A DNA stretch of 59,131 bases from NCBI GenBank assembly GCA_018812485.1, contig JAHJDO010000127.1, positions 1 through 59,131 on the forward strand. Direction: 5' to 3'. How positions within the stretch are numbered: position 1 is the first letter of the stretch; each line of letters begins with the position of its first letter. This document shows, in pieces, positions 17,733 to 43,106 of this stretch. This DNA is from a bacterium. Lineage in GTDB: Bacteria; JAHJDO01. The translations under genes were made by a program, and so were the position numbers. The notes under the pieces are model-generated. The model worked only from the letters and a program-made list of their open reading frames with translations, searched no databases and was not told where the DNA came from.

Positions 17733-18308
17733 TTAATTCTTTACAGGCCAAATGGGAGCGACGGTTTTTCCGTATACTTCGTTAATCACTTGAGCTAAAG
17801 CGGTATAAATCGCAGAGAAGCCGCAGAAAATTCCTTCGTAACCTGCAATGTGTTTTATAGTACTGCTGTTTGTAAAGTCTCCGAGGGCTAGTAAAAAGAA
17901 GAGCAACGCCAGGGAGGCGAACACGATTTGTAACGCTCGGTTCAATTTTAGTGTACCAATAAATAAAACTGCCGTAAAAATACCCCACATTATTAAATAT
18001 GCTACCATAGCTGATTTTTCCGGTGCTGCGATCAATCCCATTTTAGGCATTACAATCAACGCAACCAAAGAGAGCCAGAAAAAACCATAGGACGTAAATG
18101 CAGTAGTTCCAAAGGTATTACCCTTTTTCCATTCCATGATTCCAGCAACGACCTGGGCTAACCCACCATAAAAAATCCCCATTCCCAATATCATTGAACC
18201 CAACTCGAAAAGACCAGCATTATGCAAATTTAACAGCACTGTAGTCATTCCAAAGCCCATCAAACCGAGTGGGGCAGGATTGGATGTAAGATCCTCTTGT
18301 CTAGTCAT
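17733..18308 (-). CDS. GPR1/FUN34/YaaH (SatP-type) acetate uptake transporter
   Basis: 191 residues, six membrane segments, with the family signature [14 protein letters not shown] near the N-terminus and [20 protein letters not shown]. SatP-type proteins move acetate or succinate with protons. I choose the ATG at 18308, whose TAATG overlap with the hydA stop and AAGGAA 6 bases upstream are right; the ATG at 18314 is too near the ribosome site. It is the last gene of the hydrogenase operon, which suggests that H2 production and acetate movement are switched together. Confidence 0.88.
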
Positions 18309-20098: not shown

Positions 20099-20111
20099 CT
20101 CTCTTGTCTCC

Positions 20112-21782
20112 TTATTTATTTCCATAAACAAGGGGTTTAAACCCCTTGTTGCCCCTATAATTAGGGTTTTCTCTGGTTACAGGTTCTCGCTTCCTGTCAG
20201 GATTTACTCCTAGAGCGAGTTCCTTTCCAAAATACTTCAAAGCAGAAAGAATAGGTGAAGCAACAGACTGTCCCATAGGACAAAAAGCTGTAAGTTTAAG
20301 TTTCTCAGCAAGTTCTTCTATAATTTTAAGTTCATCACAATAGGCTTCCTGTTTTTCCAAGCGTTTGAAAGAATTATACATCTGTTTTGTACCAATTCTG
20401 CATACAGAACATTTCCCGCATGACTCATGAACAAAGAATTTCATGCAGCAGGCTAGGAAATCCGCAATTGAAACTGTCTCGTTCATAATCAATATTGCGC
20501 CAGAACCCAGATTATGTCCCAGTTTCTGAAGTTCTTGATATTCAAGCGGCACATCCAGAAGCTTTGAAGAAAAAATATCGCCGGCAGTTCCTCCTATTTG
20601 AGCCATTTTAAATTTCCCGGAAGACATGCCTCCTGCATAATCATAAATAATCTCTCTCAGAGTGATTCCCATAGGAACTTCAATTAAGCCGGGACGCTTT
20701 ATATGCCCCAATATGGTATAGACTTTAGTTCCAGGAGTGTTTTCTGTTCCAATCTTTTTAAACCACTCGGATCCATTTAATATAATAGGAGCTATATTGG
20801 CAAAGGTTTCGACATTATTTACGTTTGTCGGCTTGGATAAAAATCCTGATTCAGCAGGAAAAGGCGGCTTAAGCCTTGGCTCGCCTCTTAATCCTTCCAT
20901 TGAATTCAGAAGAGCTGTTTCTTCTCCGCAAACGTAAGAACCAGCTCCAATCTTAATCTTTACATTAAAATCAAAGTCCGTGCCGAAAATATTCTTACCC
21001 AACAGCCCTAATTTCTCAGCGTCTTTTATGGCTTTTGTTAATCTTTGAATAGAAAGCTGATATTCTCCGCGAATGTAGATATAAGCTGTATTAGCTCCTA
21101 TTGCGTATCCGCAGATTGCCATACCTTCCAGAACCTTATGCGGGTCTCCCTCCATAATCAGGCGATCCTTAAAGGTGCCGGGCTCTCCTTCATCCGCATT
21201 GCAGATAATATATTTTGGACTTTCCTTCGCTGCTCTGGCAAATGACCATTTCAAACCTGTTGGAAATCCTGCACCTCCTCTTCCTACAAGTTTGGAATCC
21301 TTTACTGTCTTAATAATATCTTCCGGAGTTTTTTTCTCCAAGGCTACACCTAACGCTTCATACCCACCAACACCGATGTATTCCTCAATATCTTCAGGAT
21401 TAATCTTTCCGCAATTCTCAAGAACAATCCGACCATAATGCTGTGTTTTTCTGGAGTCGCAATCTGTTGGATCTATTCCTGGGCTAAGTTTCTCCGATAG
21501 AAGTAATTTTTTATAAGATCTTCCCTTAATAAATCTTTCCTGAATAAATTCCACAACATTCTCTTCGGTCACATTTCCGTATATTTCTCCTGTAGGATAT
21601 ATCCCGAGAACGACTCCTTTATTAACAGGTCCAATACTTCCTGTCTCAACAACTTGAATTTGAGAGGAAAGATTATGTTTGTTTATTTCAGCAATCAACT
21701 TGCTTTTGATTTCCCTTGCCCCCAAAACAACAGTATTGCCATCGATACCAACTAAAATCTGAGCAATGTTTCCTTTTGACAT
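20112..21782 (-). CDS. hydB: Hydrogenase flavoprotein subunit HydB (NuoF-like, cluster-poor form)
   Basis: 556 residues. The NuoF core is intact: GRGGAGFPTGLKW (FMN/NADH site), CNADEGEPGTFKDR, GAGSYVCGEETAL, and SCGKCSVCRIGT plus a later FCPMG cysteine for one [4Fe-4S]. The N-terminal thioredoxin-like domain is kept, but the four [2Fe-2S] cysteines of the family are all gone (the usual CxGTGC position reads GIDGNTVV; TGCxGxC reads TGSIGPV). The usual C-terminal two-cluster ferredoxin domain is also absent. It oxidises or reduces NAD(H) in complex with HydA and HydC. Confidence 0.92.
   Translation of the reverse strand: MSKGNIAQILVGIDGNTVVLGAREIKSKLIAEINKHNLSSQIQVVETGSIGPVNKGVVLGIYPTGEIYGNVTEENVVEFIQERFIKGRSYKKLLLSEKLSPGIDPTDCDSRKTQHYGRIVLENCGKINPEDIEEYIGVGGYEALGVALEKKTPEDIIKTVKDSKLVGRGGAGFPTGLKWSFARAAKESPKYIICNADEGEPGTFKDRLIMEGDPHKVLEGMAICGYAIGANTAYIYIRGEYQLSIQRLTKAIKDAEKLGLLGKNIFGTDFDFNVKIKIGAGSYVCGEETALLNSMEGLRGEPRLKPPFPAESGFLSKPTNVNNVETFANIAPIILNGSEWFKKIGTENTPGTKVYTILGHIKRPGLIEVPMGITLREIIYDYAGGMSSGKFKMAQIGGTAGDIFSSKLLDVPLEYQELQKLGHNLGSGAILIMNETVSIADFLACCMKFFVHESCGKCSVCRIGTKQMYNSFKRLEKQEAYCDELKIIEELAEKLKLTAFCPMGQSVASPILSALKYFGKELALGVNPDRKREPVTRENPNYRGNKGFKPLVYGNK
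20127..20150. repeat. 24-bp perfect palindrome at the hydB/hydA junction
   Basis: The half-site AACAAGGGGTTT (20127-20138) is followed directly by its reverse complement to 20150. It lies in the last codons of hydB, about 30 bases upstream of the hydA start and just before its ribosome site. In RNA it could form a short-loop hairpin affecting hydA expression, processing or mRNA decay. Confidence 0.6.
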
Positions 21783-21785
21783 AAA

Positions 21786-22250
21786 TTATTTCCTTTCCTT
21801 TTCTTGAATTTGGTCCAATATTTTATATATTTTTTCTTCGTTTAAATTTCCGTAGGCTTCATCATTGATCATCATAGCAGGGGCAACTCCGCAAACTCCA
21901 AGACAACTTGTTCCCTCTAACGTAAAAAGACCATCGTCAGTTGTTTCTCCAACCTTAACCCCTAATTTTGATTCTATTGCTTCGAAAATAGTTTGCGCTC
22001 CTAAAATATGACATGGAGGGCTTTCACAAACCCTAATTATATATTTACCGCGCGGTGTAAAGCTAAACATGGTGTAAAAAGAAGCGGTTCCCTTAATCTC
22101 AGACACAGGCATGTTCATTTCTTTGCTTAATTCATAGATATTCTCTTCGCAAATATAGTTGTTTGGATTTTGATTTTGAATATCATGGAGAATCTGTAAT
22201 AAATTCTCTCTTCTATTTTCATGTTTTTTAATTATTTCTTTTATTGTCAT
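21786..22250 (-). CDS. hydC: Hydrogenase subunit HydC (NuoE-like [2Fe-2S] protein)
   Basis: 154 residues. NuoE/HydC family: N-terminal helical part (LPVSEIKG-like MPVSEIKGTASFYTMF) and a thioredoxin-like [2Fe-2S] domain with CESPPCHILG (CX4C) and CLGVCGVAPAMMIND (CX3C). All four ligands are present. It passes electrons between the HydB flavin and the HydA clusters, or forms the bifurcation site in related enzymes. The gene overlaps the upstream small ferredoxin gene by 4 bases and precedes hydB by 3 bases. Confidence 0.94.
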   Translation of the reverse strand: MTIKEIIKKHENRRENLLQILHDIQNQNPNNYICEENIYELSKEMNMPVSEIKGTASFYTMFSFTPRGKYIIRVCESPPCHILGAQTIFEAIESKLGVKVGETTDDGLFTLEGTSCLGVCGVAPAMMINDEAYGNLNEEKIYKILDQIQEKERK

Positions 22251-22606
22251 AGATTCCTCTCCTTTAAGAAAACATGTTCTTGCACAATTTTGTTGTTTAA
22301 AACATGTTTTTCAAAGATTTCTTTAGCAACCTTTGAATCAACCTTCCAATACACTACAGGATTTTTATCCTGTATATATACTTGAACCATAGGCTCCTCC
22401 GCACAAAATCCAGCACAACCTGAACTTGTGATTATAATATCTGTTTTATTACTCTTATTAATGAGTTCCACAAGTGTATTCATTGTCTGTCTTGCGCCTG
22501 CACCAATACTGCATGTGCCCATACAAATAACAATTCTGACTCTATGCTTTCTAGAACGCATCTGGACTCTATCTCTTATTTGTTTCAGTTCCTCTAAGTT
22601 CTTCAT
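22247..22606 (-). CDS. Small [2Fe-2S] thioredoxin-like ferredoxin (HndB-like)
   Basis: 119 residues. The motifs VICMGTCSIGAGA and SGCAGFCAEEPMVQVY give a CX4C and CX3C set for a [2Fe-2S] cluster in a thioredoxin fold, as in HndB of the NADP-reducing hydrogenase. This domain is homologous in pattern to the N-terminus of HydB, where here the ligands are lost. It may therefore supply that cluster in trans as a fourth subunit. It lies between rex and hydC in the operon. Confidence 0.85.
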   Translation of the reverse strand: MKNLEELKQIRDRVQMRSRKHRVRIVICMGTCSIGAGARQTMNTLVELINKSNKTDIIITSSGCAGFCAEEPMVQVYIQDKNPVVYWKVDSKVAKEIFEKHVLNNKIVQEHVFLKERNL

Positions 22607-25144: not shown

Positions 25145-26179
25145 ATGAAACATAAAAATGTGCTGGTTATCGGAGCGGGAATAGCAGGCATTATTTCAGC
25201 TTTAGAGATTGCAGATAGAGGAATAACTGTTCATTTAGTAGAGAAAACATCTTCAATAGGCGGTCATGTTCAAAAATTTTGTTGTAAAGCGGTAGATGAT
25301 GTTTGCACAAAATGCGGGGCTTGTCTTCTAAAGGATAGGACAGACAGGATAAAGGTTCATCCTAATGTTAAAATATATTTAGATTCAGATATATCCGATA
25401 TTTTAAGGTCTAAAGCTGGTTTTTCTGGTCAAATAAAACACAATAATAAGATCATGCCTGTAGAAGTAGACGCAATAGTCGTCGCAACTGGTTTTACTCC
25501 ATTTGATGCAAGGGAAAAAGGCAGATTTGGTTACGGGAGAATTCCTTATGTTTTTACAGGTCTGGATATTGAAGAGCATTTCAAAAAAAAAGAAAAATTT
25601 AACCTCTTGGATAAAATTCCAAAGCAAGCAGCATTCATCCAGTGTGTGGGGTCAAGGGATGAACAATTAAATAAAGGTTATTGTTCAAGAGTATGCTGTC
25701 GTTATGCTTTGAGACTCGTCATGATGCTTAGAGAAACCTTCCCTGAAATTAAGGTAGATGTTTTCTATATGGATATCCAGTCTTCAGGCAAAGAATTCAA
25801 TATGTTATATGACCAATGTAAGGATGATTCAAGAATAGAGTTTATAAAAAGTATACCAACAAGAGCACAAGAAATTCCTGAGACTAAATCAGTAAGGGTT
25901 TTGTATGAAGATGTAACAAAGGCTAAGCTTGTTGAGAGGGATTATGATCTTCTTGTTCTTTCTATAGGCATGATGCCATCAGAGGAGAATAGGAAAATTG
26001 AGAGTCTTCTTGGAATTAATACAGACGAGTTCGGTTTTTTTGAACCTGTTGATAATTTTTCTACAAGAACAAATGTTCAAGGTGTTTTTCTCTCAGGTAC
26101 ATGTGAAGGGCCAAAGAGCATATCAGAATCTATTCGGCACGCAGAGAAAACTGCAATAGATGTGATGGGGTACTTATGA
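25145..26179 (+). CDS. HdrA-like FAD-dependent oxidoreductase, first of a pair
   Basis: 344 residues. FAD motif VIGAGIAGIISALEIADRG near the N-terminus, an early CTKCGAC Fe-S motif, and the flavin-proximal cluster region CVGSRDEQLNKGYCSRVCC that is diagnostic of HdrA (heterodisulfide reductase A). The long N-terminal and the C-terminal ferredoxin domains of full HdrA are absent. Electron bifurcation by HdrA needs such a FAD. The stop overlaps the next gene, a second HdrA-like protein, which has the parts missing here; the two may form one composite HdrA. Confidence 0.85.
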   Translation: MKHKNVLVIGAGIAGIISALEIADRGITVHLVEKTSSIGGHVQKFCCKAVDDVCTKCGACLLKDRTDRIKVHPNVKIYLDSDISDILRSKAGFSGQIKHNNKIMPVEVDAIVVATGFTPFDAREKGRFGYGRIPYVFTGLDIEEHFKKKEKFNLLDKIPKQAAFIQCVGSRDEQLNKGYCSRVCCRYALRLVMMLRETFPEIKVDVFYMDIQSSGKEFNMLYDQCKDDSRIEFIKSIPTRAQEIPETKSVRVLYEDVTKAKLVERDYDLLVLSIGMMPSEENRKIESLLGINTDEFGFFEPVDNFSTRTNVQGVFLSGTCEGPKSISESIRHAEKTAIDVMGYL

Positions 26180-27411
26180 ACATTCTTATAATTGGCGGTG
26201 GTATTGCAGGAATAACTGCTGCAATATACCTTGGGGAACAAGGGCATAAAGTAACTCTAATTGAAAGAGGGGAAATCCTGGGTGGCAGGTTAAATAATCT
26301 TTTCAGCGTGTATGGCATGGGTATATGTGCAAAAGATTTCATGTGTGAGCAAATAGCAAAATTAAAGAAATTTTCAAATATAACTGTATTTACCTCTGCG
26401 GAATTAGTAGAGGTAAAAGGATATGTAGGAAGCTTCAATTCAAAATTCAAAATTCAAAATTCAAAATTAATTAAAATCAAACATGGGACAGTTATTATTG
26501 CAACCGGAATTGATGTATCCACGCCAAAGATGGATTGCAATTCTCAAGGGATAATCAATCATACCCATCTTGAAGATTACATTGCAGATAGCAAGATAAG
26601 AAGATTGTCAAAAGTCGTATTTCTATGTGACTTTGACAAGGAAGATTCTCAAATAATAGCATTATCTACACTAAAAAATGCTTTGCTTCTCAGAGAAAAA
26701 TTAAGATGTGAGGTATTTGTAATATCCCGCAGTATAAAAGTTGCTGGTAAGAAATTTGAGCAATCATATACGGATGCCAGAGAAAAAGGAGTTGTATTTA
26801 TAAAGCCTCTTAAGTCTCAGATGAAAATATCTCCATATAACAACCTAATATTTGTTGAACTTAGCTCAACAGATTCTGCTGTAGAGGGAATAGACATAAG
26901 AAATCTTCAACTGAAGTGTGACTGGCTGGTAATTGGAGAGAATATTCTTCCCAGCCAGGGCACAGAAGAGCTCTCGGGTATACTAGGTGTTGAGAGAGAT
27001 AAACAAGGGTTTTTCCAGAATAACAATGTTCACTTTATGCCAAATTTGTCAAATAGGAAAGGCATATTCTTTGCTGGAGCATGTCATATTGATGCCGGGC
27101 TGAATGATATATTAGATGATTCGTTAACAGCTGCATATGCTGCTCATAACCTGATTGCAAAGAGTGCGATAGAAATTGATGAGAAGACAGCAGAAGTAGA
27201 TGAGGGGAAATGCGCGCTTTGTCTTACATGCATACGTTCATGCCCTCATAAAGCAATAGATATAGAGTTCTCTCGCGAAGCGGGCAAGAAAGCTGCAAAG
27301 ATTATTGAAGAGGCATGTTTTGGATGTGGAATCTGCACGTCGCTATGTCCCTCAAGAGCAATACAGCTCAGGGAATATGAGGATGAGAAGATACTTAAGC
27401 TTATAGGATGA
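26176..27411 (+). CDS. HdrA-like flavoprotein with C-terminal ferredoxin domain, second of a pair
   Basis: 411 residues. FAD motif ILIIGGGIAGITAAIYLGEQG is kept, and two [4Fe-4S] motifs are at the C-terminus (CALCLTCIRSCP, CFGCGICTSLCP). The flavin-proximal cluster region, which in HdrA reads CVGSRD...YCSRVCC, here reads FLCDFDKEDSQIIALSTLKNA, so those four cysteines are lost. A short satellite repeat encodes part of residues 88-98. It overlaps the preceding HdrA-like gene by 4 bases and precedes an MvhD-like gene, a usual HdrA neighbour. Confidence 0.82.
   Translation: MNILIIGGGIAGITAAIYLGEQGHKVTLIERGEILGGRLNNLFSVYGMGICAKDFMCEQIAKLKKFSNITVFTSAELVEVKGYVGSFNSKFKIQNSKLIKIKHGTVIIATGIDVSTPKMDCNSQGIINHTHLEDYIADSKIRRLSKVVFLCDFDKEDSQIIALSTLKNALLLREKLRCEVFVISRSIKVAGKKFEQSYTDAREKGVVFIKPLKSQMKISPYNNLIFVELSSTDSAVEGIDIRNLQLKCDWLVIGENILPSQGTEELSGILGVERDKQGFFQNNNVHFMPNLSNRKGIFFAGACHIDAGLNDILDDSLTAAYAAHNLIAKSAIEIDEKTAEVDEGKCALCLTCIRSCPHKAIDIEFSREAGKKAAKIIEEACFGCGICTSLCPSRAIQLREYEDEKILKLIG
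26436..26468 (+). repeat. Heptanucleotide satellite (CAAAATT)n inside the second HdrA-like gene
   Basis: Four exact CAAAATT units at 26441-26468, preceded by a partial unit. They encode part of the low-complexity segment FNSKFKIQNSK. The 7-base unit keeps frame only in multiples of three copies, so a change of one copy would break the gene. Confidence 0.85.
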
Positions 27412-27418
27412 TTTTGTA

Positions 27419-27829
27419 ATGACATATAAACCAAATATTACTGTCTTCTGCTGTGAGAATTCAGTTTACGAAACTGTGTTAAGTGTTTGTAAACACCACA
27501 GCAATATTCAAGTTATAAAGGTTCCATGTTCTGGGAAGATTAGTAGTATTCATATACTTAAATGTTTTGAATCCGGGAAGGATATGGTTATAGTAATTGC
27601 ATGCATAGAAGAAGCATGTCACTTTATAAATGGAAATATAAGAGTAGAAAAAGTTGTGGAGGCCACTTGTAACATGTTAAAGGAATTGGACATTGAGGAT
27701 AAACGCTTGCAAATTCTCAACTTTGCACCTAATATGGAAGAGAAATTTTGTAGTGCTTTTGAGGATGTAATGTTACAGGCTTCAAAGCTTGGGCCGATGT
27801 ATGAGGAACGATGGAAAGGAGGTGTTTGA
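27419..27829 (+). CDS. MvhD/FlpD-like [2Fe-2S] electron-transfer protein (divergent)
   Basis: 136 residues of the MvhD/FlpD family (PF02662), which carries electrons from a donor to HdrA. KVPCSGKI and ACIEEACHFINGN match the second and third cysteine motifs, but the first motif, normally CNWC near the N-terminus, reads CCENSVY, so cluster binding may differ. It follows the HdrA pair by 7 bases. A more usual copy of the family is at 39972. No ribosome site stands out; translation is probably coupled. Confidence 0.8.
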   Translation: MTYKPNITVFCCENSVYETVLSVCKHHSNIQVIKVPCSGKISSIHILKCFESGKDMVIVIACIEEACHFINGNIRVEKVVEATCNMLKELDIEDKRLQILNFAPNMEEKFCSAFEDVMLQASKLGPMYEERWKGGV

Positions 27830-28350: not shown

Positions 28351-29241
28351 ATGTCTGCAAAGATTATAGATGGTAAGGCGATTGCTGCCGAGATGCAAGA
28401 GGAGATGAAGATTGAGGTGGGGAGCCTTAAAGACAAATATAATCTAATTCCCGGGCTTGCTGTTGTGCTTGTAGGGGAGAATCCAGCTTCAAGGGTTTAT
28501 GTGAGTATGAAAAAAAAGGCATGTGCAAGGTTGGAGATATACTCTGAGGAGCATAAACTGCCGCGGGAAACTCCGGAACAAGACCTGCTGGAACTTATTA
28601 ATAAGCTCAATGCAAATGAGAAGGTTCATGGCATTCTTGTTCAGCTTCCCCTGCCGGACCATATTGATGAAGATAAGGTTCTTAACGCTATTGATCCATC
28701 AAAGGATGTTGACGGCTTTCATCCGGTAAATGTGGGCAATCTTGTTATTGGCAAGCCTTCCTTTCTGCCATGCACTCCATATGGCATTCAGCAGCTTCTT
28801 CTTAAAAGCGGTATTCAGATTGAAGGAAAACATGTAGTTGTAGTTGGCAGGAGTAATATTGTGGGAAAACCTGTTGCCCTAATCTTGCTTCAAAAAGCGC
28901 AAGGGGCTAATGCAACAGTCACCGTATGCCATTCACGAAGCGGGGACTTGTCTTACTATACAAAACAGGCGGATATATTGATTGCTGCTATTGGAAAAGC
29001 GGAAATGATAAAAAAGCATATGGTTAAACAGGACGCAGTGGTTATAGATGTGGGAGTTAATCGGGTTGATGATCCAAGCTCAGAAAGGGGATACAAACTT
29101 GTTGGGGATGTGGATTTCGAGGAAGTAAAAGAAGTAGCGAGCGCTATTACACCCGTTCCAGGCGGCGTTGGGCCTATGACAATTACAATGCTTATGCATA
29201 ATACCATAAAAGCTGCGAGAATGCAGAGATCGATAAAATGA
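28351..29241 (+). CDS. folD: Methylene-THF dehydrogenase/methenyl-THF cyclohydrolase FolD
   Basis: 296 residues. Typical FolD motifs: VGENPASRVYVSMKKKAC (with the catalytic Lys), VQLPLPDHIDEDKVLNAIDPSKDVDGFHP, VVVGRSNIVGKPVA (dinucleotide fold) and PVPGGVGPMTITML. It interconverts 5,10-methylene-THF and 10-formyl-THF using NAD(P), the second oxidation level of the methyl branch of the Wood-Ljungdahl pathway. It overlaps metV by 4 bases. 10-formyl-THF also feeds PurH in the same row. Confidence 0.96.
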   Translation: MSAKIIDGKAIAAEMQEEMKIEVGSLKDKYNLIPGLAVVLVGENPASRVYVSMKKKACARLEIYSEEHKLPRETPEQDLLELINKLNANEKVHGILVQLPLPDHIDEDKVLNAIDPSKDVDGFHPVNVGNLVIGKPSFLPCTPYGIQQLLLKSGIQIEGKHVVVVGRSNIVGKPVALILLQKAQGANATVTVCHSRSGDLSYYTKQADILIAAIGKAEMIKKHMVKQDAVVIDVGVNRVDDPSSERGYKLVGDVDFEEVKEVASAITPVPGGVGPMTITMLMHNTIKAARMQRSIK

Positions 29242-29909
29242 TAGTTGCTGATAGAAAGCCTATTCAAGAAATTCTTGATATGCTTGAAGATTGTGAGAAG
29301 CTGCTTATTGTTGGCTGTAACGCTTGTGTAGCCATTTGTATGGCAGGTGGAGAAAAAGAGGTTTCTGAACTAGCTTCTTTAATCAAAATAGCAAAAAAAA
29401 AACAAGGTAAGACCATAGAAATTACAGAACAGGTTACAGAACGTCAGTGTGAAGAAGAGTTTGTTAAAGAAATAGAGAGCGAAATTAAAGCACATGATAA
29501 AATTCTTTCCATGGCTTGTGGAGTAGGAGTGCAGCTTATTGGAAAGATGTATGAAGAAAAACCAGTTTATCCTGCACTTAATACAAAGTTTATGGGTTTG
29601 CCTGAGGAGCAGGGACAATGGACTGAAACATGTGCTGGATGTGGAGACTGCAAGTTGGCAGATTTTGGCGGCATATGCCCTATTGCCCGATGTTCAAAGA
29701 GCCTGCTTAATGGTCCATGCGGAGGATCAGTAGATGGTAAATGCGAGGTAGATCCGGATAATATTGATTGTGCATGGCAATTAATCTATGACAGAATGAA
29801 ACTCATTGGACAACTTGATAAACTTCTAAAAATAGAGCCTGCAAAAAGCTGGAAGACCTCAAGAGACGGAGGTCCCAGAAAAGTCATAAGGCAGGATGTA
29901 AGAGAATGA
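29238..29909 (+). CDS. metV: MetV, zinc/Fe-S subunit of methylene-THF reductase
   Basis: 223 residues, MTHFR C-terminal domain family. The N-terminal part has IVGCNACVAICMAGG; the C-terminal part is rich in cysteines (ETCAGCGDCKLADFGGICPIARCSKSLLNGPCGGS). In acetogens MetV is the partner of MetF and links it to its electron donor, which in Moorella is HdrABC-MvhD. It overlaps folD and precedes metF by 6 bases. Confidence 0.92.
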   Translation: MIVADRKPIQEILDMLEDCEKLLIVGCNACVAICMAGGEKEVSELASLIKIAKKKQGKTIEITEQVTERQCEEEFVKEIESEIKAHDKILSMACGVGVQLIGKMYEEKPVYPALNTKFMGLPEEQGQWTETCAGCGDCKLADFGGICPIARCSKSLLNGPCGGSVDGKCEVDPDNIDCAWQLIYDRMKLIGQLDKLLKIEPAKSWKTSRDGGPRKVIRQDVRE

Positions 29910-29915: not shown

Positions 29916-30833
29916 ATGAAATCAGGAAGTAATCTTGAGACTGTTTTAAATTCAGGCAAGTTCGCTATTACTGCAGAATTAGGGCCTCCTAAAAGCGCAA
30001 ATAAAGAGTTTGTTATAAAACGGGCGCAGATATTAAAAAACTATGTAGACGCAGCAAACCTTACTGACAATCAAACCGCAATAGTCAGAATGTCCAGTAT
30101 AGCCGCAGCTAGAATAATTTTAGATGAGGATGTTGAGCCTGTAATTCAGATAACCTGTCGGGATCGCAACAGGATTGCTATACAGAGTGATGTTCTTGGC
30201 GCAGCTGCATTAGGGGTGAAAAATATTCTCTGTATTACTGGCGATCATCAGTGTTTTGGAAACCATCCCGATTCAAAAAATGTGTTTGATATAGATTCCA
30301 TACAGCTTGTAAGTCTCTTGAAGATGATGAGGGATGAACAAAAGGTCTTAGGCGGTGATGCGATAAAAACGCCTCCCCAAATCTTTATAGGCGCAGCAGC
30401 AAATCCTTTTGCAGATCCTCTGGAATTCAGAGTTATAAGACTTGAGAAAAAAATAAAAGCTGGAGCGGATTTTATTCAAACACAGTGTATATTTGATATG
30501 AACAGGTTTTCTGAATGGATGAAAATAGTGGAGGATAAAGGCTTAGACAAGAAGACGCACATTCTCGCGGGCGTTACCCCCATTAAATCATATAATATGG
30601 CGAAACATATGGCTGAAAACGTATCAGGGATTAGTGTGCCTCAGGAAATCTTGAAGCGTATAGAGAGCGCTAATGACCCTAAGGAGGAAGGTATAAATAT
30701 ATGTATTGAAACAATAGAAGAGCTGAGAAAAATAAAAGGCATTCATGGTATTCATATAATGGCAGTTCAATGGGAAGAAGTAGTGCCCGAGATCGTAAAA
30801 AGAGTCGGATTATTTCCAAGACCACAAATATAA
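29916..30833 (+). CDS. metF: Methylene-tetrahydrofolate reductase MetF
   Basis: 305 residues, complete FAD-binding TIM barrel: TAELGPPKSAN, DAANLTDNQTA, IQITCRDRNRIAIQSDVLGAAALG, ILCITGDH and GADFIQTQCIFD. It reduces 5,10-methylene-THF to 5-methyl-THF. The gene is directly behind metV and before hdrC, so its electrons probably come through HdrA/HdrC proteins and not from free NADH alone. Confidence 0.95.
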   Translation: MKSGSNLETVLNSGKFAITAELGPPKSANKEFVIKRAQILKNYVDAANLTDNQTAIVRMSSIAAARIILDEDVEPVIQITCRDRNRIAIQSDVLGAAALGVKNILCITGDHQCFGNHPDSKNVFDIDSIQLVSLLKMMRDEQKVLGGDAIKTPPQIFIGAAANPFADPLEFRVIRLEKKIKAGADFIQTQCIFDMNRFSEWMKIVEDKGLDKKTHILAGVTPIKSYNMAKHMAENVSGISVPQEILKRIESANDPKEEGINICIETIEELRKIKGIHGIHIMAVQWEEVVPEIVKRVGLFPRPQI

Positions 30834-30880: not shown

Positions 30881-31360
30881 GTGAAAGATAAAATTAGTTC
30901 GGATGAACTTGATAAAAACTTTAAATATGAGGTAGGTGCACAGCCAGGCGGAGAAAATATTAAAAAATGCTTTTCCTGCGGCACATGCACTGCAGGATGT
31001 CCTGTGAGTGAAGTAGATGAGGAGTTCAATCCAAGAAAAATTATTCGCATGGTACTGCTTGGCATGAAGAAAGAGGTACTCTCCTCTAAAGTAATCTGGT
31101 ATTGCTGTAGCTGTTATACATGCTACGCGCAATGCCCGCAGAATGTTAAATTTACAGATATTATGGCAGCGCTCAGGTACCTAGCAATAAAGGAAGGTCA
31201 TGTTAGGAAGGATTTTTTAGATAAGGTGTATAACATTGATAATCTGGCACAAAAAATAAGACTTGATATTATTAAGTGTCTTACAAAAGAACAACCAGTT
31301 GATAAAGCAGGAGAGAATATAACAGCTAAAGTCAAAGAGTTCATAAAATCTCAGGGGTAA
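30881..31360 (+). CDS. hdrC: Heterodisulfide reductase subunit C-like protein (HdrC)
   Basis: 159 residues, GTG start with GGGAAGAAAGGG upstream. Two [4Fe-4S] motifs typical of HdrC: CFSCGTCTAGCP and CCSCYTCYAQCP. HdrC carries electrons between HdrA and HdrB. An HdrB gene with CCG domains would be expected next to it, but the next gene is a GAF-HD-GYP protein, and no HdrB is found in the window. In Moorella hdrCBA-mvhD-metVF encode one complex, so this is a reduced version. Confidence 0.88.
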   Translation: MKDKISSDELDKNFKYEVGAQPGGENIKKCFSCGTCTAGCPVSEVDEEFNPRKIIRMVLLGMKKEVLSSKVIWYCCSCYTCYAQCPQNVKFTDIMAALRYLAIKEGHVRKDFLDKVYNIDNLAQKIRLDIIKCLTKEQPVDKAGENITAKVKEFIKSQG

Positions 31361-35409: not shown

Positions 35410-35502
35410 GCAAGAGGACAATATATCTTAATATTGAAGTCCAAACTGACTACAATTGTATTAATAAGTGCCTACAAGATTTATGGATATTTTTAATTGG
35501 TA

Positions 35503-38500
35503 ATGGTAATGAGTTATCAAGAATTAGTTAAAAAACCTGTAGCTTCAGTAATGGTGGTTGGTGCAGGAATCGGGGGCATACAGGCATCTTTAGACCTGGC
35601 TGAGTCAGGGTTTAAGGTTTATCTTGTGGAATCGTCGCCGACAATTGGCGGAGTAATGGCTCAGCTTGATAAAACCTTCCCTACCAATGATTGCTCTATG
35701 TGCATAATGTCCCCAAAACTGGTTGAGTGCGGCAGGCATCTAAATATAGAGAATATCACATATTCAGAGATAGAAGATATTTCTGGTCAAGCTGGCAATT
35801 TTATAGTATGCATCAAGAGAAAATCCAGATTTATAGATACAACAAAATGTACTGGGTGCGCTGAATGTGAAGATGTATGTCCTGTAAAAGTTCCTGATGA
35901 GTTCAACCAGGAATTAATATCCCGTAAAGCTATTTACAGACCATTTCCACAGGCATATCCAAATGCGTATACAATTGAGAAGAATGATATTTCCCCATGC
36001 AGACTTGCCTGTCCTGCAGGGGTTAATCCGCATGGATATGTTGCGCTTATTTCTGCAGGCAAGTATAAAGAAGCCCTTGATCTTGTGAGAGAGAGGATTG
36101 CATTTGCTGCAGTATGTGGCAGAGTTTGCCATCATCCATGTGAAGCACAATGTAAAAGAGGAGAATATGATCAGCCAATTGCTATAAGATCTCTAAAACG
36201 CTTCCTTGCGGATTGGGAAGGGAAAAATAGGATTAAGGATTTAGGATTAAGGATTAAGGAAAAGCAACGAAGAAAGAAGGAAAAAGTTGCAATTATTGGT
36301 TCTGGACCAGCTGGCTTGAGCTGTGCTTATGATCTAGCACGAGAAGGATATCCTGTTACAGTATTTGAAGCATTGCCTGTTGCAGGTGGAATGCTTGCAG
36401 TAGGCATACCTGAATATCGCCTACCTAAAAATATATTAAACAAAGAAATTAGAATGATTCAGGACCTGGGCGTTGAGATAAAAACAAATATCTGCATAGG
36501 AGATAAAATCAGTTTTAGCGACTTAAAAAACAAAATGGGATATAAAGCTGTGTTCATTGCAGCAGGTGCTCATAAGGGGCTTAAGCTGGGTATTCCCGGT
36601 GAAGGGATGCGAGGCGTATTGGATTGCGTGGCATTTTTGAGAGAGGCAAATCTAGGCAAGCTCAAGCAAGTTAAAGGGAAAGTTGCCGTTATAGGAGGAG
36701 GAAATGCAGCTGTGGATTCTGCCAGAACTGCCCTGAGACTGGGAGCCAGTAAAGTGACGATCATATACAGGCGTACCAGAGTAGAAATGCCTGCAGATGA
36801 GGAGGAGATAAGAGCAGCAGAGAAAGAAGGAATTGATATTATCTATTTAGCTGCGCCATTGAGAATAGTTGGAGAAAGGGGCGAAGCTCGCAAGGTTGTT
36901 TGTCAAAAAATGAAGCTTGGTGAACCTGATGACAGCGGAAGAAGAAGGCCAGTTCCAGTGCCGAAAACTGATTTTGCTATTGAGATAGATATGCTTATAC
37001 CTGCTATAAGCCAATCTCCTGACTTATCTTTTATCTCAGGAGACCATGGCATAGTTATCAGTAAATGGAATACAATTGATGCTGATGCTGACACCTGCCA
37101 GACCGCTAAAGGAGGCATATTCGCAGGCGGAGATGTTACCAGCGGACCAGGCACGGTTATAGAGGCAATTGCAGCTGGGAAGAAAGCAGCTGTGTCAATA
37201 ATGGGGTATTTACAGGGGGCAAAATTAACGTACAAAACAGTTCATGGTAATCCGAGCGAGCCGGATGTTGGAGATTATATTGCGCTTGAAAACAGAGTGA
37301 GAATGCCAGAGCTTAATATTAAACCAAGGATTAAAAATTTCTCTGAAGTTGAGCTTGGATTTTCAGAAGAAGACGCAAAGAGAGAAGCGGAAAGATGTCT
37401 CAATTGCGGAATTTGTTCCGGGTGCGGTGAATGCGAAAAGACGTGTCAGGCAAATGCAATAGACCATAACATGAAAGATGAATTTGCACATATAAATATT
37501 GGCTCAATAATTCTTGCGCCGGGCTTTGAGGAATTTAATCCGCAATTGAAATATGATTATGGATATAGCAGATTTAAAAATGTAATAAGCAGTATTCAAT
37601 TTGAGAGAATTTTATCTGCTTCAGGGCCTTACGAAGGGCATCTATTAAGACCTTCTGACAGGAAACCGCCAAGAAGAATTGCTTTTCTCCAATGCGTTGG
37701 TTCAAGAGATGTTGACTGCAAAGCTGGATACTGCTCTTCAGTATGTTGTATGTATGCTATAAAAGAAGCAATTATAGCAAAGGAACACAGCAGGGAGAAA
37801 CTGGATATTGGTATTTTCTTCATGGATATGAGGGCGTATGGCAAGGACTTTGACAAATATTATGAAAGAGCAAAAGCTGAATATGGCGTAAGATTTATAA
37901 GATCAAGAGTTTCAGAAGCAGTTGAAAATAAAAACACAGGTAATATTACATTAAGATATGTCAATGAAGAGGGAAATATATTCTTTGAGGAATTTGATCT
38001 TGTTGTTCTTTCAGTAGGGCTCAAGCCTTCTAAAAAGATTTCCAATCTTGCAAGAAAAACCGGCATTAAGCTTAATCAATATAATTTTTGTGATACAAGG
38101 GACTTTCTTCCCCTGCATACCTCTAAACCTGGAGTATTTGTATGCGGCGCTTTTAGCGGGCCAAAGGACATTCCTGAAACTGTAATGGGAGCGAGCGGAG
38201 CTGCTGCCGCTGCTGCTGAGCCGTTATTTAGTGTGCGTGGTGCATTAGTAAAAGAGAAAGCATATCCAAAAGAGCTTGATATTCGTGGACAGGGACCCAG
38301 AATAGGTGTTTTTGTATGCCATTGTGGTATTAATATTGGCGGTGTGGTGGATGTTAAAGAGGTTGTTGAATATGCAAAAACACTTTCAAATGTTGTGTAT
38401 GCTGATGAGAATTTATATACATGCTCCCAGGATACTCAACAAATAATTAAGGATAAGATTAAGGAGCATGGCTTAAACAGGGTAATCGTTGCTTCCTGTT

Positions 38501-39960
38501 CTCCGAGAACACACGAGGCTCTATTTCAGGAGACAATTAAAGAAGCCGGGCTGAATCCTTATTTATTTGAAATGGGGAATATCAGGGATCAATGTTCATG
38601 GGTACATATGAAGCAGCCCAGAGAGGCTACAGACAAAGCAAAGGATTTGGTTAAAATGATTGTAGCAAAATCGCGCTTTAAACGTCCTCTTGAAAGAATT
38701 CCCTCAGATATAGCGCAGCAGGCTCTTGTTATTGGCGGGGGTGTAGCCGGCATGACTACTGCGCTGTCAATAGCGAACAATGGATTCCAAACACATCTTA
38801 TTGAAAAAGAAGCTGAACTTGGAGGAAATCTGAGAAATATCTATTTTGATATAAACGGACAAGAAATCAGGAACAAATTTGAAAACCTGAGAAAACAAGT
38901 TCAGAATAATAAGTATATAAAAGTCTACTTCAACTCACATGTTGAAGAAATTGAAGGATATGTAGGGAATTTTAATTCAAAAATTAAAGCGCAAAACTCA
39001 AAACCAGTTGAGGTTAAGCATGGAGTTGTTATTGTTGCGACAGGAGCAGAGGAATATAAGCCAAAAGAATATCTGTATGGAAGAGATAAACGAATTGTTA
39101 CACAAAAGGAATTGGAACATATGATATCCTGTTCCAATATTAACCTGGATGCCAAGCAGTCTATTGTAATGATTCAGTGTGTTGGCTCAAGAGATGACAA
39201 GAGACCTTATTGCAGTAGAGTCTGTTGCCAGCAGGCAATAAAGAACGCACTCCTATTAAAGAAAATAAATCCTGAGATTGAGATTTATATTCTGTACAGG
39301 GACATGAGAACATACGGGTTCTATGAAGACGCATACAGAGAAGCAAGGGATAGAGGGGTGATTTTTTTAAGATACAACGATGATGAGAAACCGGATGTTA
39401 AACTGGATAATAAAAAGAAATTGATTATTTCTGTTGAAGATATAATCGTTGGAAAGCAGCTGAATTTAGATACAGATTTATTGGTTTTGAGTGCAGGAAT
39501 TATACCTAATCCTGAAAATATAGAGCTTTCACAAATGATGAAAGTGCCGTTAAATGAGGACAGGTTCTTTCTTGAAGCGCATATGAAACTCCGTCCTGTT
39601 GATTTTTCAACTGAAGGTGTTTTTATGTGCGGTCTTGCTCATGGGCCAAAAAATATAAGGGAAAGTATTATTCAGGCATATGCAGCAGCAGGGAGAGCAT
39701 GCACTGTTCTGGCTAAAAAACAGATTTTTGCAGAGGGCACTATTTCTGTTGTTGATGAAACTAAGTGCGACGGCTGCGGATTATGCGTTGAAGTATGCGC
39801 TTATAAGGCAATAGAGATTGATGAGGAGCGCAGTATTGCTGTTGTAAATTCTACCTTATGTAAAGGATGTGGAGCATGTTCTGCATCATGCAGACCAAAC
39901 GCAATAACCGTTAGTGGTTTTACAGATGAACAAATTCTTGCGCAGATTGACGCGTTGTAG
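35503..39960 (+). CDS. Giant flavoprotein: HdrA interrupted by a GltD/NfnB-like module, then a second HdrA
   Basis: About 1,485 residues. Order: FAD site MVVGAGIGGIQASLDLAESG and CSMCIMSP; ferredoxin motif CTGCAECEDVCP; at about 160-600 a GltD/NfnB-type module (CRLACPAGVNPHGYVAL, CGRVCHHPCEAQCKRG, AIIGSGPAGLSCAYDLAREG, AVIGGGNAAVDSARTALRLG); CLNCGICSGCGECEKTC; first HdrA part resumes with CVGSRDVDCKAGYCSSVCC; at about 930 a second HdrA starts (VFVCHCGINIGGVVDV), with a second FAD site, CVGSRDDKRPYCSRVCC and two terminal [4Fe-4S] motifs. It heads an operon with mvhD and Flox-like genes. Starts at TTG 35497 or ATG 35509 are also possible. Confidence 0.88.
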   Translation: MVMSYQELVKKPVASVMVVGAGIGGIQASLDLAESGFKVYLVESSPTIGGVMAQLDKTFPTNDCSMCIMSPKLVECGRHLNIENITYSEIEDISGQAGNFIVCIKRKSRFIDTTKCTGCAECEDVCPVKVPDEFNQELISRKAIYRPFPQAYPNAYTIEKNDISPCRLACPAGVNPHGYVALISAGKYKEALDLVRERIAFAAVCGRVCHHPCEAQCKRGEYDQPIAIRSLKRFLADWEGKNRIKDLGLRIKEKQRRKKEKVAIIGSGPAGLSCAYDLAREGYPVTVFEALPVAGGMLAVGIPEYRLPKNILNKEIRMIQDLGVEIKTNICIGDKISFSDLKNKMGYKAVFIAAGAHKGLKLGIPGEGMRGVLDCVAFLREANLGKLKQVKGKVAVIGGGNAAVDSARTALRLGASKVTIIYRRTRVEMPADEEEIRAAEKEGIDIIYLAAPLRIVGERGEARKVVCQKMKLGEPDDSGRRRPVPVPKTDFAIEIDMLIPAISQSPDLSFISGDHGIVISKWNTIDADADTCQTAKGGIFAGGDVTSGPGTVIEAIAAGKKAAVSIMGYLQGAKLTYKTVHGNPSEPDVGDYIALENRVRMPELNIKPRIKNFSEVELGFSEEDAKREAERCLNCGICSGCGECEKTCQANAIDHNMKDEFAHINIGSIILAPGFEEFNPQLKYDYGYSRFKNVISSIQFERILSASGPYEGHLLRPSDRKPPRRIAFLQCVGSRDVDCKAGYCSSVCCMYAIKEAIIAKEHSREKLDIGIFFMDMRAYGKDFDKYYERAKAEYGVRFIRSRVSEAVENKNTGNITLRYVNEEGNIFFEEFDLVVLSVGLKPSKKISNLARKTGIKLNQYNFCDTRDFLPLHTSKPGVFVCGAFSGPKDIPETVMGASGAAAAAAEPLFSVRGALVKEKAYPKELDIRGQGPRIGVFVCHCGINIGGVVDVKEVVEYAKTLSNVVYADENLYTCSQDTQQIIKDKIKEHGLNRVIVASCSPRTHEALFQETIKEAGLNPYLFEMGNIRDQCSWVHMKQPREATDKAKDLVKMIVAKSRFKRPLERIPSDIAQQALVIGGGVAGMTTALSIANNGFQTHLIEKEAELGGNLRNIYFDINGQEIRNKFENLRKQVQNNKYIKVYFNSHVEEIEGYVGNFNSKIKAQNSKPVEVKHGVVIVATGAEEYKPKEYLYGRDKRIVTQKELEHMISCSNINLDAKQSIVMIQCVGSRDDKRPYCSRVCCQQAIKNALLLKKINPEIEIYILYRDMRTYGFYEDAYREARDRGVIFLRYNDDEKPDVKLDNKKKLIISVEDIIVGKQLNLDTDLLVLSAGIIPNPENIELSQMMKVPLNEDRFFLEAHMKLRPVDFSTEGVFMCGLAHGPKNIRESIIQAYAAAGRACTVLAKKQIFAEGTISVVDETKCDGCGLCVEVCAYKAIEIDEERSIAVVNSTLCKGCGACSASCRPNAITVSGFTDEQILAQIDAL
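36229..36256 (+). repeat. Heptanucleotide satellite (AGGATTA)n inside the giant HdrA gene
   Basis: Four AGGATTA-type units (one with a T for A change) at 36229-36256, coding for IKDLGLRIK in the linker just before the GltD-like FAD domain. Confidence 0.8.
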
Positions 39961-39971: not shown

Positions 39972-40406
39972 ATGAGTAAACTCAAAATTAGCAACTGGCA
40001 GCCAAAGATAATTGCTTTTCTATGTAATTGGTGTTCATACGCTGGAGCTGATCTGGCTGGAATAAGCAGACTGCAGTATCCACCAAATGTGCGAATTATT
40101 CGTGTACCGTGCTCAGGAAGAATGAATCCTTTGTATATAATCAGATCTCTTCAGCGTGGAGTTGACGGGGTCTTGGTTTCAGGCTGTCATCCGGGAGATT
40201 GCCATTATCTAACGGGTAATTATCATGCTAGAAGAAAATTTGCCATCATAAACAGCTTGCTTCAGTATGTTGGCATTGAACCGGGAAGAATACATTTCTC
40301 ATGGGTGTCCGCTTCTGAAGGCGGCAAGTTTGCGGAAGTTATAAAACAAGTTACCGAGGATGTTAAAAAACTAGGCCCTGCAAAAAAAATGGTGAAGAAG
40401 ATATGA
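39972..40406 (+). CDS. mvhD: MvhD/FlpD-type [2Fe-2S] protein (FloxD-like)
   Basis: 144 residues with all cysteine motifs of the family: FLCNWCSYAGADLAG, RVPCSGRM and SGCHPGDCHYLTGN. MvhD carries electrons from a hydrogenase, formate dehydrogenase or Flox oxidoreductase to HdrA. It lies 11 bases after the giant HdrA gene and overlaps the next gene by 4 bases. Unlike the copy at 27419 it keeps the first CX2C motif, so this is probably the main electron carrier. Confidence 0.93.
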   Translation: MSKLKISNWQPKIIAFLCNWCSYAGADLAGISRLQYPPNVRIIRVPCSGRMNPLYIIRSLQRGVDGVLVSGCHPGDCHYLTGNYHARRKFAIINSLLQYVGIEPGRIHFSWVSASEGGKFAEVIKQVTEDVKKLGPAKKMVKKI

Positions 40407-41254
40407 AAGCTAAAAAGATACAAGAGATTGCTAAAAAACTCCTGAGAGAAAAGAAGGTAGATGTTGTTATTGGATTTGAAAAGGGGACACTCCCTTTGTG
40501 TGCAACACCGTGTTTTATAAAAACACCTGATCAGGTGGATAGACTTATATGGAACTCGTTCTGTGGAAATAATCTGGCAAATTATCTGCCAAAGCGCAAG
40601 GATAAAATTGCAATTGTAGCTAAAGGGTGTGATTCAAGATCCATAGTAGTTCTTATTCAGGAAAATCAGATAAAACGGGAGCAGTTATACATTATTGGCG
40701 TACCATGCGAAGGAATGACCGATAAGAACAATGTGCTTCATGATTACTGCCTTATATGCGAACATAAGAATCCCGTGATATATGACGTGCTTGTTGGAAA
40801 TAAAGTTGTAGAAAACAAGGCACAAAGACACAAAGGCACAAAGTGGCAAAAAATTGAAGATTTTGGAAAAAAAGCTTCTTCTGATAAATGGCAATATCTT
40901 GAATCAGAATTATCAAAATGCATAAGATGCAATGCGTGCAGAAATGCATGTCCAACCTGTTATTGCAAAGAGTGTTTTATTGATCAGGAAAAACCAAGAT
41001 GGGTTGGCACAACTAATAATCTCTCTGATATTATTTTCTTTCATCTTGGACGTATTTTCCATCAGGCAGGAAGATGTACGGATTGCGGAGCATGTGTAAG
41101 AGCCTGTCCAATGAATATAGACTTGAGGCAGTTCACACAGAAGATTACAAAGGACGGGGAAACACTTTTTGACTATGAAACAGGACTTGATATAGATATT
41201 AAACCTCCGTTTGCAACATTTAAAGAAGATGATACGCAGGATTTTATAAAATGA
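40403..41254 (+). CDS. FloxC-like Fe-S protein with two [4Fe-4S] clusters
   Basis: 283 residues. The N-terminal half resembles the FrhB-type fold (IVAKGCDSRSIVVLIQENQI, GVPCEGM); the C-terminal half has two ferredoxin motifs, CIRCNACRNACPTCYCKEC and CTDCGACVRACPMNID. With the next two genes it matches the pattern of the FloxABCD oxidoreductase of sulfate reducers, which feeds NADH electrons to HdrABC. An 8-base satellite codes for KAQRHKGTKWQK in the middle. It overlaps both neighbours by 4 bases. Confidence 0.8.
   Translation: MKAKKIQEIAKKLLREKKVDVVIGFEKGTLPLCATPCFIKTPDQVDRLIWNSFCGNNLANYLPKRKDKIAIVAKGCDSRSIVVLIQENQIKREQLYIIGVPCEGMTDKNNVLHDYCLICEHKNPVIYDVLVGNKVVENKAQRHKGTKWQKIEDFGKKASSDKWQYLESELSKCIRCNACRNACPTCYCKECFIDQEKPRWVGTTNNLSDIIFFHLGRIFHQAGRCTDCGACVRACPMNIDLRQFTQKITKDGETLFDYETGLDIDIKPPFATFKEDDTQDFIK
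40819..40850 (+). repeat. Octanucleotide satellite (GGCACAAA)n inside the FloxC-like gene
   Basis: Units GGCACAAA, GACACAAA, GGCACAAA and a diverged fourth (GTGGCAAA) in tandem at 40819-40850, inserted in the linker between the two domains of the protein. Confidence 0.75.
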
Positions 41255-42264
41255 AGAGCAAGATATTAGCAAAAAAGGATTTGTCAAAATTTATCAGTAA
41301 GCTTGTTAAAGAGTACGATGTCTTTGCCCCTGTAAAGAAAGAGGAAGGTATCCTTTTCTCGAAGATTGATAAAGTAGATGATATATGCCTTTCCTATTCA
41401 AATACAAAAAATTCTGTGAAGGAATTTTTACTTCCTCAATCAGAGGAGCTTTTCAGGTTTGTTAAAAAGGGAAACAGTAATGAGATTACAGATCTAAAGG
41501 AAAGAAAGAGAAAAAGTCTCCTATTTGGGGTTCGCCCTTGTGACGGGAAGGCCATTGCTATGCTGGATAAGGTATTTTTTGAGAATATACCTGATTCATA
41601 TTACAAAAGCAGGCGAAAAAACACTATCATTATAGGTATGGCGTGTAATGAACTCGATCAAACATGTTTTTGCACATCTGTTGGAGGAGGTCCTTTTTCA
41701 ATTGAAGGACTTGACGCTCTGTTTGTTGAACTAAAAGAAAAGTATTTCATTATCCCTGTAACAAAACAAAGTGAAAAACTCTTTGCGCATCTTGATACTG
41801 CTTCTCAGAAGGATATCAATGAAGCAGAGGAACTTAAAAAGAATGCATTAAAAGGGCTATGCCCTGTTTTTGAAATAAAAGATATAAATAAAAAATTGCA
41901 TGGAATGTTTGACTCTCCAATCTGGGAAGAAATTCACGAGAAATGCATAAAATGCGGTATATGTACATATCTGTGTCCGGCTTGTTATTGTTTTGATATT
42001 CAGGACGAAACTATAGGAGAGAAAGGTTGTAGGGTGAGGAATTGGGATTCGTGTATGTTCCCGAAATTTACATTACATGTCTCAGGTCATAATCCCAGAG
42101 CAACGCAGAAGGAAAGATGGCGGCAGAGAATCATGCATAAATTTGATTATTTAAAGACAAATGTAGGCGGCTATGGATGCACAGGCTGTGGAAGATGCGT
42201 GGAGTACTGTCCTGTTAATCTGGATATTCGAAAAGTACTAAAAGATATACTGGAGTCGAAATGA
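41251..42264 (+). CDS. FloxB-like subunit (sulfhydrogenase beta-type, 4Fe-4S dicluster)
   Basis: 337 residues. It resembles beta subunits of sulfhydrogenases and anaerobic sulfite reductase A: LLFGVRPCDGKAIAMLDK and GMACNELDQTCFCTSVGGGP in the N-terminal part, then CIKCGICTYLCPACYCFDI and CTGCGRCVEYCPVNLDIR for two [4Fe-4S] clusters. It would pass electrons between the FAD subunit (next gene) and the FloxC-like protein. Overlaps of 4 bases on both sides show a tight operon. Confidence 0.85.
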   Translation: MKSKILAKKDLSKFISKLVKEYDVFAPVKKEEGILFSKIDKVDDICLSYSNTKNSVKEFLLPQSEELFRFVKKGNSNEITDLKERKRKSLLFGVRPCDGKAIAMLDKVFFENIPDSYYKSRRKNTIIIGMACNELDQTCFCTSVGGGPFSIEGLDALFVELKEKYFIIPVTKQSEKLFAHLDTASQKDINEAEELKKNALKGLCPVFEIKDINKKLHGMFDSPIWEEIHEKCIKCGICTYLCPACYCFDIQDETIGEKGCRVRNWDSCMFPKFTLHVSGHNPRATQKERWRQRIMHKFDYLKTNVGGYGCTGCGRCVEYCPVNLDIRKVLKDILESK

Positions 42265-43106
42265 ATAATCCCTATTTGCCTATACCTATGATAATTAAAA
42301 ACATAGTAGATGAAACAACAGCTAAGGATATAAAAACATTTGAGCTTGCATTTACAAACAAGGAAGATGAGAAAAGTTTTTCGTATTTACCGGGCCAATT
42401 TGCAGAGGTGTCTGTTTTGGGTGCTGGAGAAGCGCCAATAGGAATAGCATCATCTCCAACAGAGAAGGGGATTTTAAAGTTCACTGTTAAGTGGTATCCA
42501 AAAGGAGTCCTAACAAGTGCTCTTCATAACCTGTTCATAGGGGATAGAATTGGAATTCGCGGCCCTTTTGGCAATAGTTTTCAGTCAAAGAATATTATAG
42601 GTAAAAGTGTCGTGGTTATAGGAGGCGGTTTTGCTTTTACAACTCTGCGTTCCTTAACTACATATATGATTCATCACAATAACAGAAGCAAGTTCAAAAA
42701 TATTACAGTCATCTATGGGGCAAGGAGTCCAGACGACTTAATTTATAAAAAAGAGTTGGAAGAGTGGAGTAAGAAAAAAGACATAACATTATATGTTACT
42801 GTCGATAAAGGAGATATAGACTGGAAGGGAAGAGAAGGATTTGTCCCAACTGTTGTGGGAGAAGTTCGGCCTTCTTCTCAAAACGCAGTAGCAATAGTAT
42901 GCGGCCCGCCTGTAATGATAAAATTTACGATCCCAAAACTTACAGAATTAGGATTCTCTCCTGAGAATATATTAAACTCACTTGAAATGAGAATGAAGTG
43001 CGGTATAGGAAAGTGCGGTAGATGTAATATAGGCAACAAATACGTCTGCAAAGATGGCCCTATCTTTTCTCTTGCTGAATTAAGTGATATGCCTAAGGAG
43101 TATTAA
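42261..43106 (+). CDS. FloxA-like FAD/NAD(P)-binding subunit (sulfhydrogenase gamma type)
   Basis: 281 residues. Ferredoxin-reductase fold: LPGQFAEVSV and PIGIASSP (FAD site), GGGFAFTTLRSL and IYGARSPDDLIY (NAD(P) site), CGPPVMIKF, and a C-terminal [2Fe-2S] motif CGIGKCGRCNIGNKYVC. It is the likely entry point of NAD(P)H electrons into the Flox/HdrA complex. It ends the operon; a tRNA gene on the other strand follows 10 bases later. Confidence 0.9.
   Translation: MNNPYLPIPMIIKNIVDETTAKDIKTFELAFTNKEDEKSFSYLPGQFAEVSVLGAGEAPIGIASSPTEKGILKFTVKWYPKGVLTSALHNLFIGDRIGIRGPFGNSFQSKNIIGKSVVVIGGGFAFTTLRSLTTYMIHHNNRSKFKNITVIYGARSPDDLIYKKELEEWSKKKDITLYVTVDKGDIDWKGREGFVPTVVGEVRPSSQNAVAIVCGPPVMIKFTIPKLTELGFSPENILNSLEMRMKCGIGKCGRCNIGNKYVCKDGPIFSLAELSDMPKEY

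Follow-up and report, generated by a model that had tools for sequence, protein, structure and literature searches.

The window (the whole stretch of DNA analyzed, 59,131 nt) contains one gene cluster in which metV, metF, hdrA, hdrC, and mvhD genes all occur (Table 1). Two of its genes, P1 and P2, encode HdrA-like proteins; both reading frames are intact, and they overlap in the sequence ATGA. The P3 protein has four conserved cysteines, and its CxxC motif lacks the second cysteine. The tandem HdrA retains the E, the K, and the proximal-cluster cysteines in both of its halves. The three genes that follow its [2Fe-2S] subunit presumably correspond to FloxC, FloxB, and FloxA, which they resemble.

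Table 1. Genes of the cluster that contains the P1–P2 pair (window coordinates).
Feature	Position	Strand	Description
P1, HdrA core subunit (putative)	25145..26179	+	344 aa; FAD/TrxR domain, proximal [4Fe-4S] motif
P2, HdrA arm subunit (putative)	26176..27411	+	411 aa; FAD/TrxR fold, C-terminal 2x[4Fe-4S] ferredoxin domain (C346-C391)
P3, MvhD-like [2Fe-2S] subunit	27419..27829	+	FlpD, PF02662
FolD-like methylene-THF dehydrogenase/cyclohydrolase	28351..29241	+	From reading of the translated ORF; orthologs in sister loci
MetV, iron-sulfur subunit of MTHFR	29238..29909	+	PF12225
MetF	29916..30833	+	PF02219
HdrC	30881..31360	+	Two [4Fe-4S] motifs; member of the HdrC clade accompanying P1
Tandem HdrA	35497..39960	+	1487 aa; GltD/NfnB-like insert
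MvhD/FloxD-type [2Fe-2S] subunit	39972..40406	+	Downstream of tandem HdrA
Three genes	40403..43106	+	4Fe-4S proteins and NAD/FAD-binding subunit

A gene for a GAF-GAF-HD-GYP signaling protein (31367-33112) lies between the HdrC and tandem HdrA genes; at the same position, genome G003 has a 581-aa ORF and G002 a shorter one. Upstream of the cluster, on the minus strand, is a HydABC-type [FeFe]-hydrogenase operon (18308-22606), assigned from ORF reading.

Complementarity of P1 and P2

For residue-level comparison, 11 P1 and 10 P2 sequences were aligned with both domains of 12 tandem or fused HdrA proteins, an ordinary HdrA, and two sequences each of QmoA and QmoB. On Methanothermococcus HdrA, the matching segments are residues 145-232 and 314-555 for P1 and residues 146-234 and 399-644 for P2. 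The preliminary description had proposed that P1 keeps the proximal-cluster motif without the C-terminal ferredoxin domain, and that P2 has this domain and a FAD fold without the proximal cysteines. Both statements are correct. The four proximal-cluster cysteines of P1 (C167/C180/C184/C185, in CVGSRD...YCSRVCC) are present in 11/11 P1 and all absent in 10/10 P2. Within the pair, the C-terminal ferredoxin domain occurs only in P2, and its eight cysteines are all conserved across lineages. The residues and domains of the two proteins are thus complementary, in the way that one would expect of an HdrA heterodimer. However, the claim that the pair together holds all parts of a tandem HdrA cannot stand as worded, since three parts are missing from it: the GltD insert, the N-terminal domain, and the inserted ferredoxin domain. 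The last of these spans about 69 aa; it is retained in P1 of the relatives and is missing from both P1 and P2 in the window, where P2 also lacks the N-terminal HdrA domain.

The E356/K409 pair has been used to separate bifurcating from non-bifurcating flavins (PMC9430772). The E356 equivalent (E143) is invariant in P1. At the K409 position (R190), 11/11 P1 sequences have arginine, whereas all tandem, Qmo, and HdrA domains compared have lysine. Among P2 sequences, those of the window genus and G191 alone keep both E and K, and these retained residues suggest that the P2 flavin of the window genus may still be active. Neither chain of the window pair combines both residues with a clustered flavin: P1 has E and R with the cluster cysteines, and P2 has E and K without them. 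As the preliminary description had proposed, the pair has a single complete flavin site, which lies in P1; its description of this site as bifurcating is doubtful given the combination of E and R. P1 also carries the only flavin of the pair with a complete high-potential outlet.

Four further cysteines of P1 (C47/C54/C57/C60) are invariant around the site of Cys197 (Methanothermococcus numbering). They include the CSxC motif, which has cysteine at both positions in all P1 and in which the first position corresponds to C194 and the second, C60, is the Cys197 equivalent; Cys197 is absent from all P2. Four cysteines would be enough in number for a cluster of their own, and such a cluster might stand in for that of the lost N-terminal domain. 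An N-terminal domain with four cysteines is present in P2 of five relatives (G268, G289, G290, G291, and G191). The corresponding region lacks these cysteines in G331 and has been lost in G046 and the window genus, and the P2 of G105 begins with an N-terminal domain. In the ANME pattern, one partner has Cys197 and no N-terminal domain, and the other has this domain and no Cys197; the window pair shows the Cys197 part of this pattern (C60 of P1).

AlphaFold models of P1 and P2 were built as single chains on shallow alignments. The P1 model (pLDDT 80.8, pTM 0.77) matches HdrA structures with TMq 0.85-0.87, and its best overall match is sHdrA 6tjr (TM 0.87/0.88 over the whole length); confidence is below 50 for residues 45-55, which include C46, C47, and C54. 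The P2 model has low confidence (pLDDT 61.8); its best match is still HdrA. A TrxR-type FAD domain is therefore indicated in both proteins by sequence, and by fold confidently in P1 and weakly in P2.

Purifying selection acts on both genes, with dN/dS between sister species of 0.17-0.20 (P1) and 0.14-0.24 (P2). When lineages are compared, identity in the proximal-cluster loop is 53% for P1 versus 23% for P2, and identity is 44% in the P2 ferredoxin domain, 28% in the P2 flavin domain, and 37% in the P1 core. One could read P2 as a degenerating HdrA half, given its fast-evolving flavin domain and a 25-residue deletion in that domain shared by two sister genomes. Nevertheless, such decay is extremely improbable in view of the dN/dS values, the unbroken frames of every complete P2 copy, and the conservation of the ferredoxin cysteines; a pseudogene was rejected on the dN/dS values.

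Phylogeny, distribution, and metabolic setting

In the flavin-domain tree, P1 forms a clade (100/100) that is sister to the first halves of tandem HdrA (94/82). The P2 clade (100/99) and the tandem second halves lie on one side of a branch with support 100/98, and P1, the first halves, Qmo, and HdrA lie on the other. The P1 and P2 subtrees contain the same three lineages. This topology indicates homology of P1 with the first halves of tandem HdrA and of P2 with the second halves. Qmo proteins form a separate clade (100/100) that does not include the pair, and identity with QmoAB is ruled out by this phylogeny. A simple split of a Sporomusa-type HdrA was also rejected, as both halves of the fused and tandem HdrA retain E, K, and the proximal cysteines, and these halves form clades separate from P1 and P2.

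The single HdrC of the window cluster groups (100/100) with the HdrC of MetVF clusters in the G268 phylum, with P1-adjacent HdrC elsewhere, and with one homolog from G178. This clade stands apart from the tandem-side and ordinary HdrC. G178 has a double-length HdrC (L051 7953-8648) of the P1-associated type with two units per chain, and its gene lies between two tandem HdrA genes.

A survey of 385 sampled relatives, extended to the phyla in which P1 was encountered, found P1 in 12 genomes from four phylum-level groups. These are 4/5 genomes of the window phylum, 4/9 of the G268 phylum, 3/4 of the phylum that contains G191, G046, and G331, and G105; the phyla of G105 and G191 are represented by 1 and 4 genomes, respectively. 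A contig search with one protein as query matched a single near relative. P2 directly follows P1 in 12/12 genomes. Separate occurrence of the two genes, named in the preliminary description as evidence against a heterodimer, was not seen at any of the 12 P1 loci (in G002 and G105, P2 is cut by a contig end). The constant order of P1 and P2 in 12 genomes, together with purifying selection on both, indicates that the pair is a product of neither chance nor decay.

Clusters in the G268 phylum have the order P1-P2-MvhD-MetV-MetF-HdrC-tandem HdrA-MvhD-FloxC-B-A. In G290, a few additional genes lie between MetF and HdrC, and the G291 cluster ends inside the tandem HdrA gene at a contig end. A second, divergent metVF copy is found upstream of P1 in clusters of this phylum (L044, L077, and L081). 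In G191, G046, G331, and G105, the order is HdrC-HdrB-P1-P2, followed by MvhD and tandem HdrA where the contig reaches; CCG domains at the HdrB positions were verified in G191 and G046. Across these groups, the pair lies beside a tandem HdrA in three phyla. The pair cluster of G331 directly follows a gene for a 650-aa protein that reads like a member of the aldehyde ferredoxin oxidoreductase family (L115, L048), and G046 also has a 650-aa ORF upstream. These proteins recall benzoyl-CoA-reductase-type Hdr complexes.

Co-occurrence with metVF, which had been suggested as a check on the pair, is seen in the window cluster and the G268 phylum but does not extend to the sister genome G004, where the pair, P3, and FolD are present and neither MetV nor tandem HdrA was found. 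Because G004 has the pair without MetV, the link is strong yet not absolute, and MetVF is not an obligate partner. Another sister genome, G001, has neither the pair nor MetV. Instead of MetVF, the G004 locus (L042 7834-8997) has, after the pair, P3, and FolD, a ThyX-like gene and a gene for a conventional MetF-like protein (31% identity to MetF).

HdrB was not found in the genome of the window itself with TIGR03288, and a search for its CCG domain (PF02754) gave no match in the five genomes of the window phylum, which are drafts with 62-96% completeness; the same CCG search was positive in 12/14 control genomes. In the G268 phylum, HdrB is absent from the MetVF-linked cluster; the HdrB of G268 itself is located with a separate, ordinary HdrABC. 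In addition, searches for CdhC were negative in all five genomes of the window phylum, and Fhs is present in the lineage. Methyl-THF in this lineage is thus apparently not destined for the usual acetyl-CoA synthase, and a role in acetogenesis is unsupported.

A candidate electron path through the pair

In published HdrA complexes, the MvhD homolog and two domains of one HdrA, the N-terminal and the C-terminal, make up a mobile arm that serves the partner HdrA' at its FAD', HA4', and HA5' (PMC12350162). Such a cross-dimer arm makes it possible to predict which sites are free to decay when the two partners differ. The reading that we favor, with a probability of roughly 0.55, is that P1 and P2 form a heterodimeric HdrA with one arm, which acts as a conduit to HdrC and MetVF and is most likely non-bifurcating. 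P2 and the MvhD-like P3 would constitute the electron-delivery arm. P1 would be the sole working core, with its flavin fed by P3 and the C-terminal ferredoxin domain of P2. Through the proximal cluster of P1, electrons would reach HdrC and, from there, MetV-MetF, which would occupy the place of the missing HdrB and reduce methylene-THF; the simplest reading of the P1-type HdrC is that it passes electrons to MetV-MetF. Since P1 has no arm, the flavin domain of P2 would receive no electrons and would persist as a scaffold and dimer partner, and its HA4 would serve no purpose, which would explain the decay of its flavin site. The lower identity of the P2 loop and flavin domain is in agreement with this. 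The low-potential ferredoxin outlet (the inserted ferredoxin domain of P1, with HA5/HA6) and the N-terminal domain of P2 are both gone in the window lineage. These losses make a non-bifurcating conduit most likely, and, together with the K409 to R replacement, the anatomy favors a plain conduit; the neighboring tandem HdrA would then carry out classical bifurcation. Domain content, residues, conservation, gene order, phylogeny, and the failure to detect HdrB are observed directly; from them we infer a dimer, the route of the electrons, contact between HdrC and MetV, and the lack of bifurcation. A broader version is put forward tentatively, as somewhat less than an even chance. In this version, a half-of-sites HdrA, in which one subunit serves only as arm and scaffold, is joined by a dedicated HdrC to MetVF and forms an HdrB-free MTHFR in two phyla, and relatives use the pair with HdrB for other reactions.

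Alternatively, the pair may still bifurcate at the single P1 site, with R190 functionally replacing K409 and a C47/C54/C57/C60 cluster passing low-potential electrons directly to free ferredoxin. The invariance of E143, the proximal cluster, and these four cysteines is consistent with this possibility, which is anatomically feasible in the relatives, whose P1 retains the inserted ferredoxin domain and whose P2, in several cases, retains the N-terminal domain. Nevertheless, we consider it unlikely, because arginine has replaced lysine in every P1 while all tandem, Qmo, and HdrA domains compared keep the lysine, and because the window genus has lost the inserted domain. Another proposal, in which P1 pairs symmetrically with itself in the manner of sHdrA and P2 serves separately as an adaptor that connects P3 to another protein, would fit the close agreement of P1 with sHdrA 6tjr in length and fold. 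It is improbable given the strict P1/P2 adjacency, the matching trees, and the complementary domain loss, and such a homodimer would have neither an arm nor contact with P3.

The one-armed heterodimer is compatible with a higher-order version, in which P1 and P2 are partners of the tandem HdrA instead of each other and the whole cluster, with the pair, MetVF, HdrC, tandem HdrA, and Flox-like subunits, is one large NADH-dependent methylene-THF reductase whose pair and tandem HdrA use a single HdrC in common. Conservation of the cluster in two phyla, adjacency of the pair to tandem HdrA in three, and the presence of only one HdrC in the window cluster are in line with such an assembly. However, G004 has the pair while tandem HdrA was not found there, and the window HdrC belongs to the P1-type rather than the tandem-type clade. 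As an explanation of its own, this assembly appears very unlikely.

Among characterized systems, the closest parallels are the complementary HdrA partners and fusions of ANME archaea (HdrA5/6, 12/13, and 3/4), which have been proposed as heterodimers and to which Moorella HdrA was noted as similar (PMC9012536). As in the P1–P2 pair, the N-terminal domain, Cys197, and the C-terminal ferredoxin domain are distributed in a complementary manner over two paralogs or halves. One ANME partner keeps the N-terminal domain, whereas the window pair has lost it. The window pair further differs in lacking the inserted ferredoxin domain in P1 and the proximal cluster in P2, and in being bacterial, linked to metVF, and from a phylum in which HdrB was undetected. 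Hdr-type MTHFRs with HdrB and HdrC are known (PMC9430772, PMC5736913, PMC7325909). In the MetVF-HdrABC-MvhD systems of Moorella and Sporomusa (PMC9430772), metVF is clustered with HdrA, HdrC, and MvhD as in the window, and the 1487-aa tandem HdrA equals the published Moorella HdrA in domain layout and length (PMC9430772). Unlike these systems, in which both flavin domains are on one chain, the window has an additional two-gene HdrA pair and lacks HdrB.

QmoA/QmoB also comprises two HdrA-like chains. In QmoA, the Cys197 site holds a cysteine and the inserted ferredoxin domain is present; QmoB has the N-terminal domain, the C-terminal ferredoxin domain, and an MvhD part. In contrast to the pair, QmoB keeps the proximal cluster, MvhD is fused, QmoC comes after them, and the proteins belong to their own clade. 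The sHdrA of Hyphomicrobium (6tjr, 349 aa) resembles P1 in being short, with FAD, one cluster site, and no ferredoxin domains. Its system uses HdrB and is not known to have a P2-like arm. Its gene context (HdrB1/C1/B2/C2 and a lipoate-binding protein) also differs from that of the window, in whose genome HdrB was not found.

The pair looks like an unusual yet recognizable variant of known electron-transfer machinery. As far as the literature searched shows, the conserved bacterial two-gene HdrA family, the loss of the proximal cluster in P2, the K to R replacement in P1, the cross-dimer-arm explanation, the association with an HdrC type of its own, and a MetVF-linked arrangement in which HdrB is absent are new; a 2025 survey of archaeal HdrA had no matching text on heterodimers. 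Structures of symmetric complexes have been the basis for deducing the cross-dimer electron path of HdrA. A naturally occurring heterodimer in which one subunit supplies the arm and the other the core, with decay where the path predicts no electrons, would provide independent evolutionary support, and the pair would be a simple system for testing this path. The arrangement also suggests that HdrB can be replaced on HdrC by another substrate-reducing enzyme, which bears on the wiring of Hdr-type methylene-THF reductases.

Finally, P2 contains a repeated 7-base unit, TTCAAAA (26439-26470), that encodes FNSKFKIQNSK. The tandem HdrA holds a similar stretch, FNSKIKAQNSK, and this likeness suggests that a short repeat has been spreading inside coding sequence.
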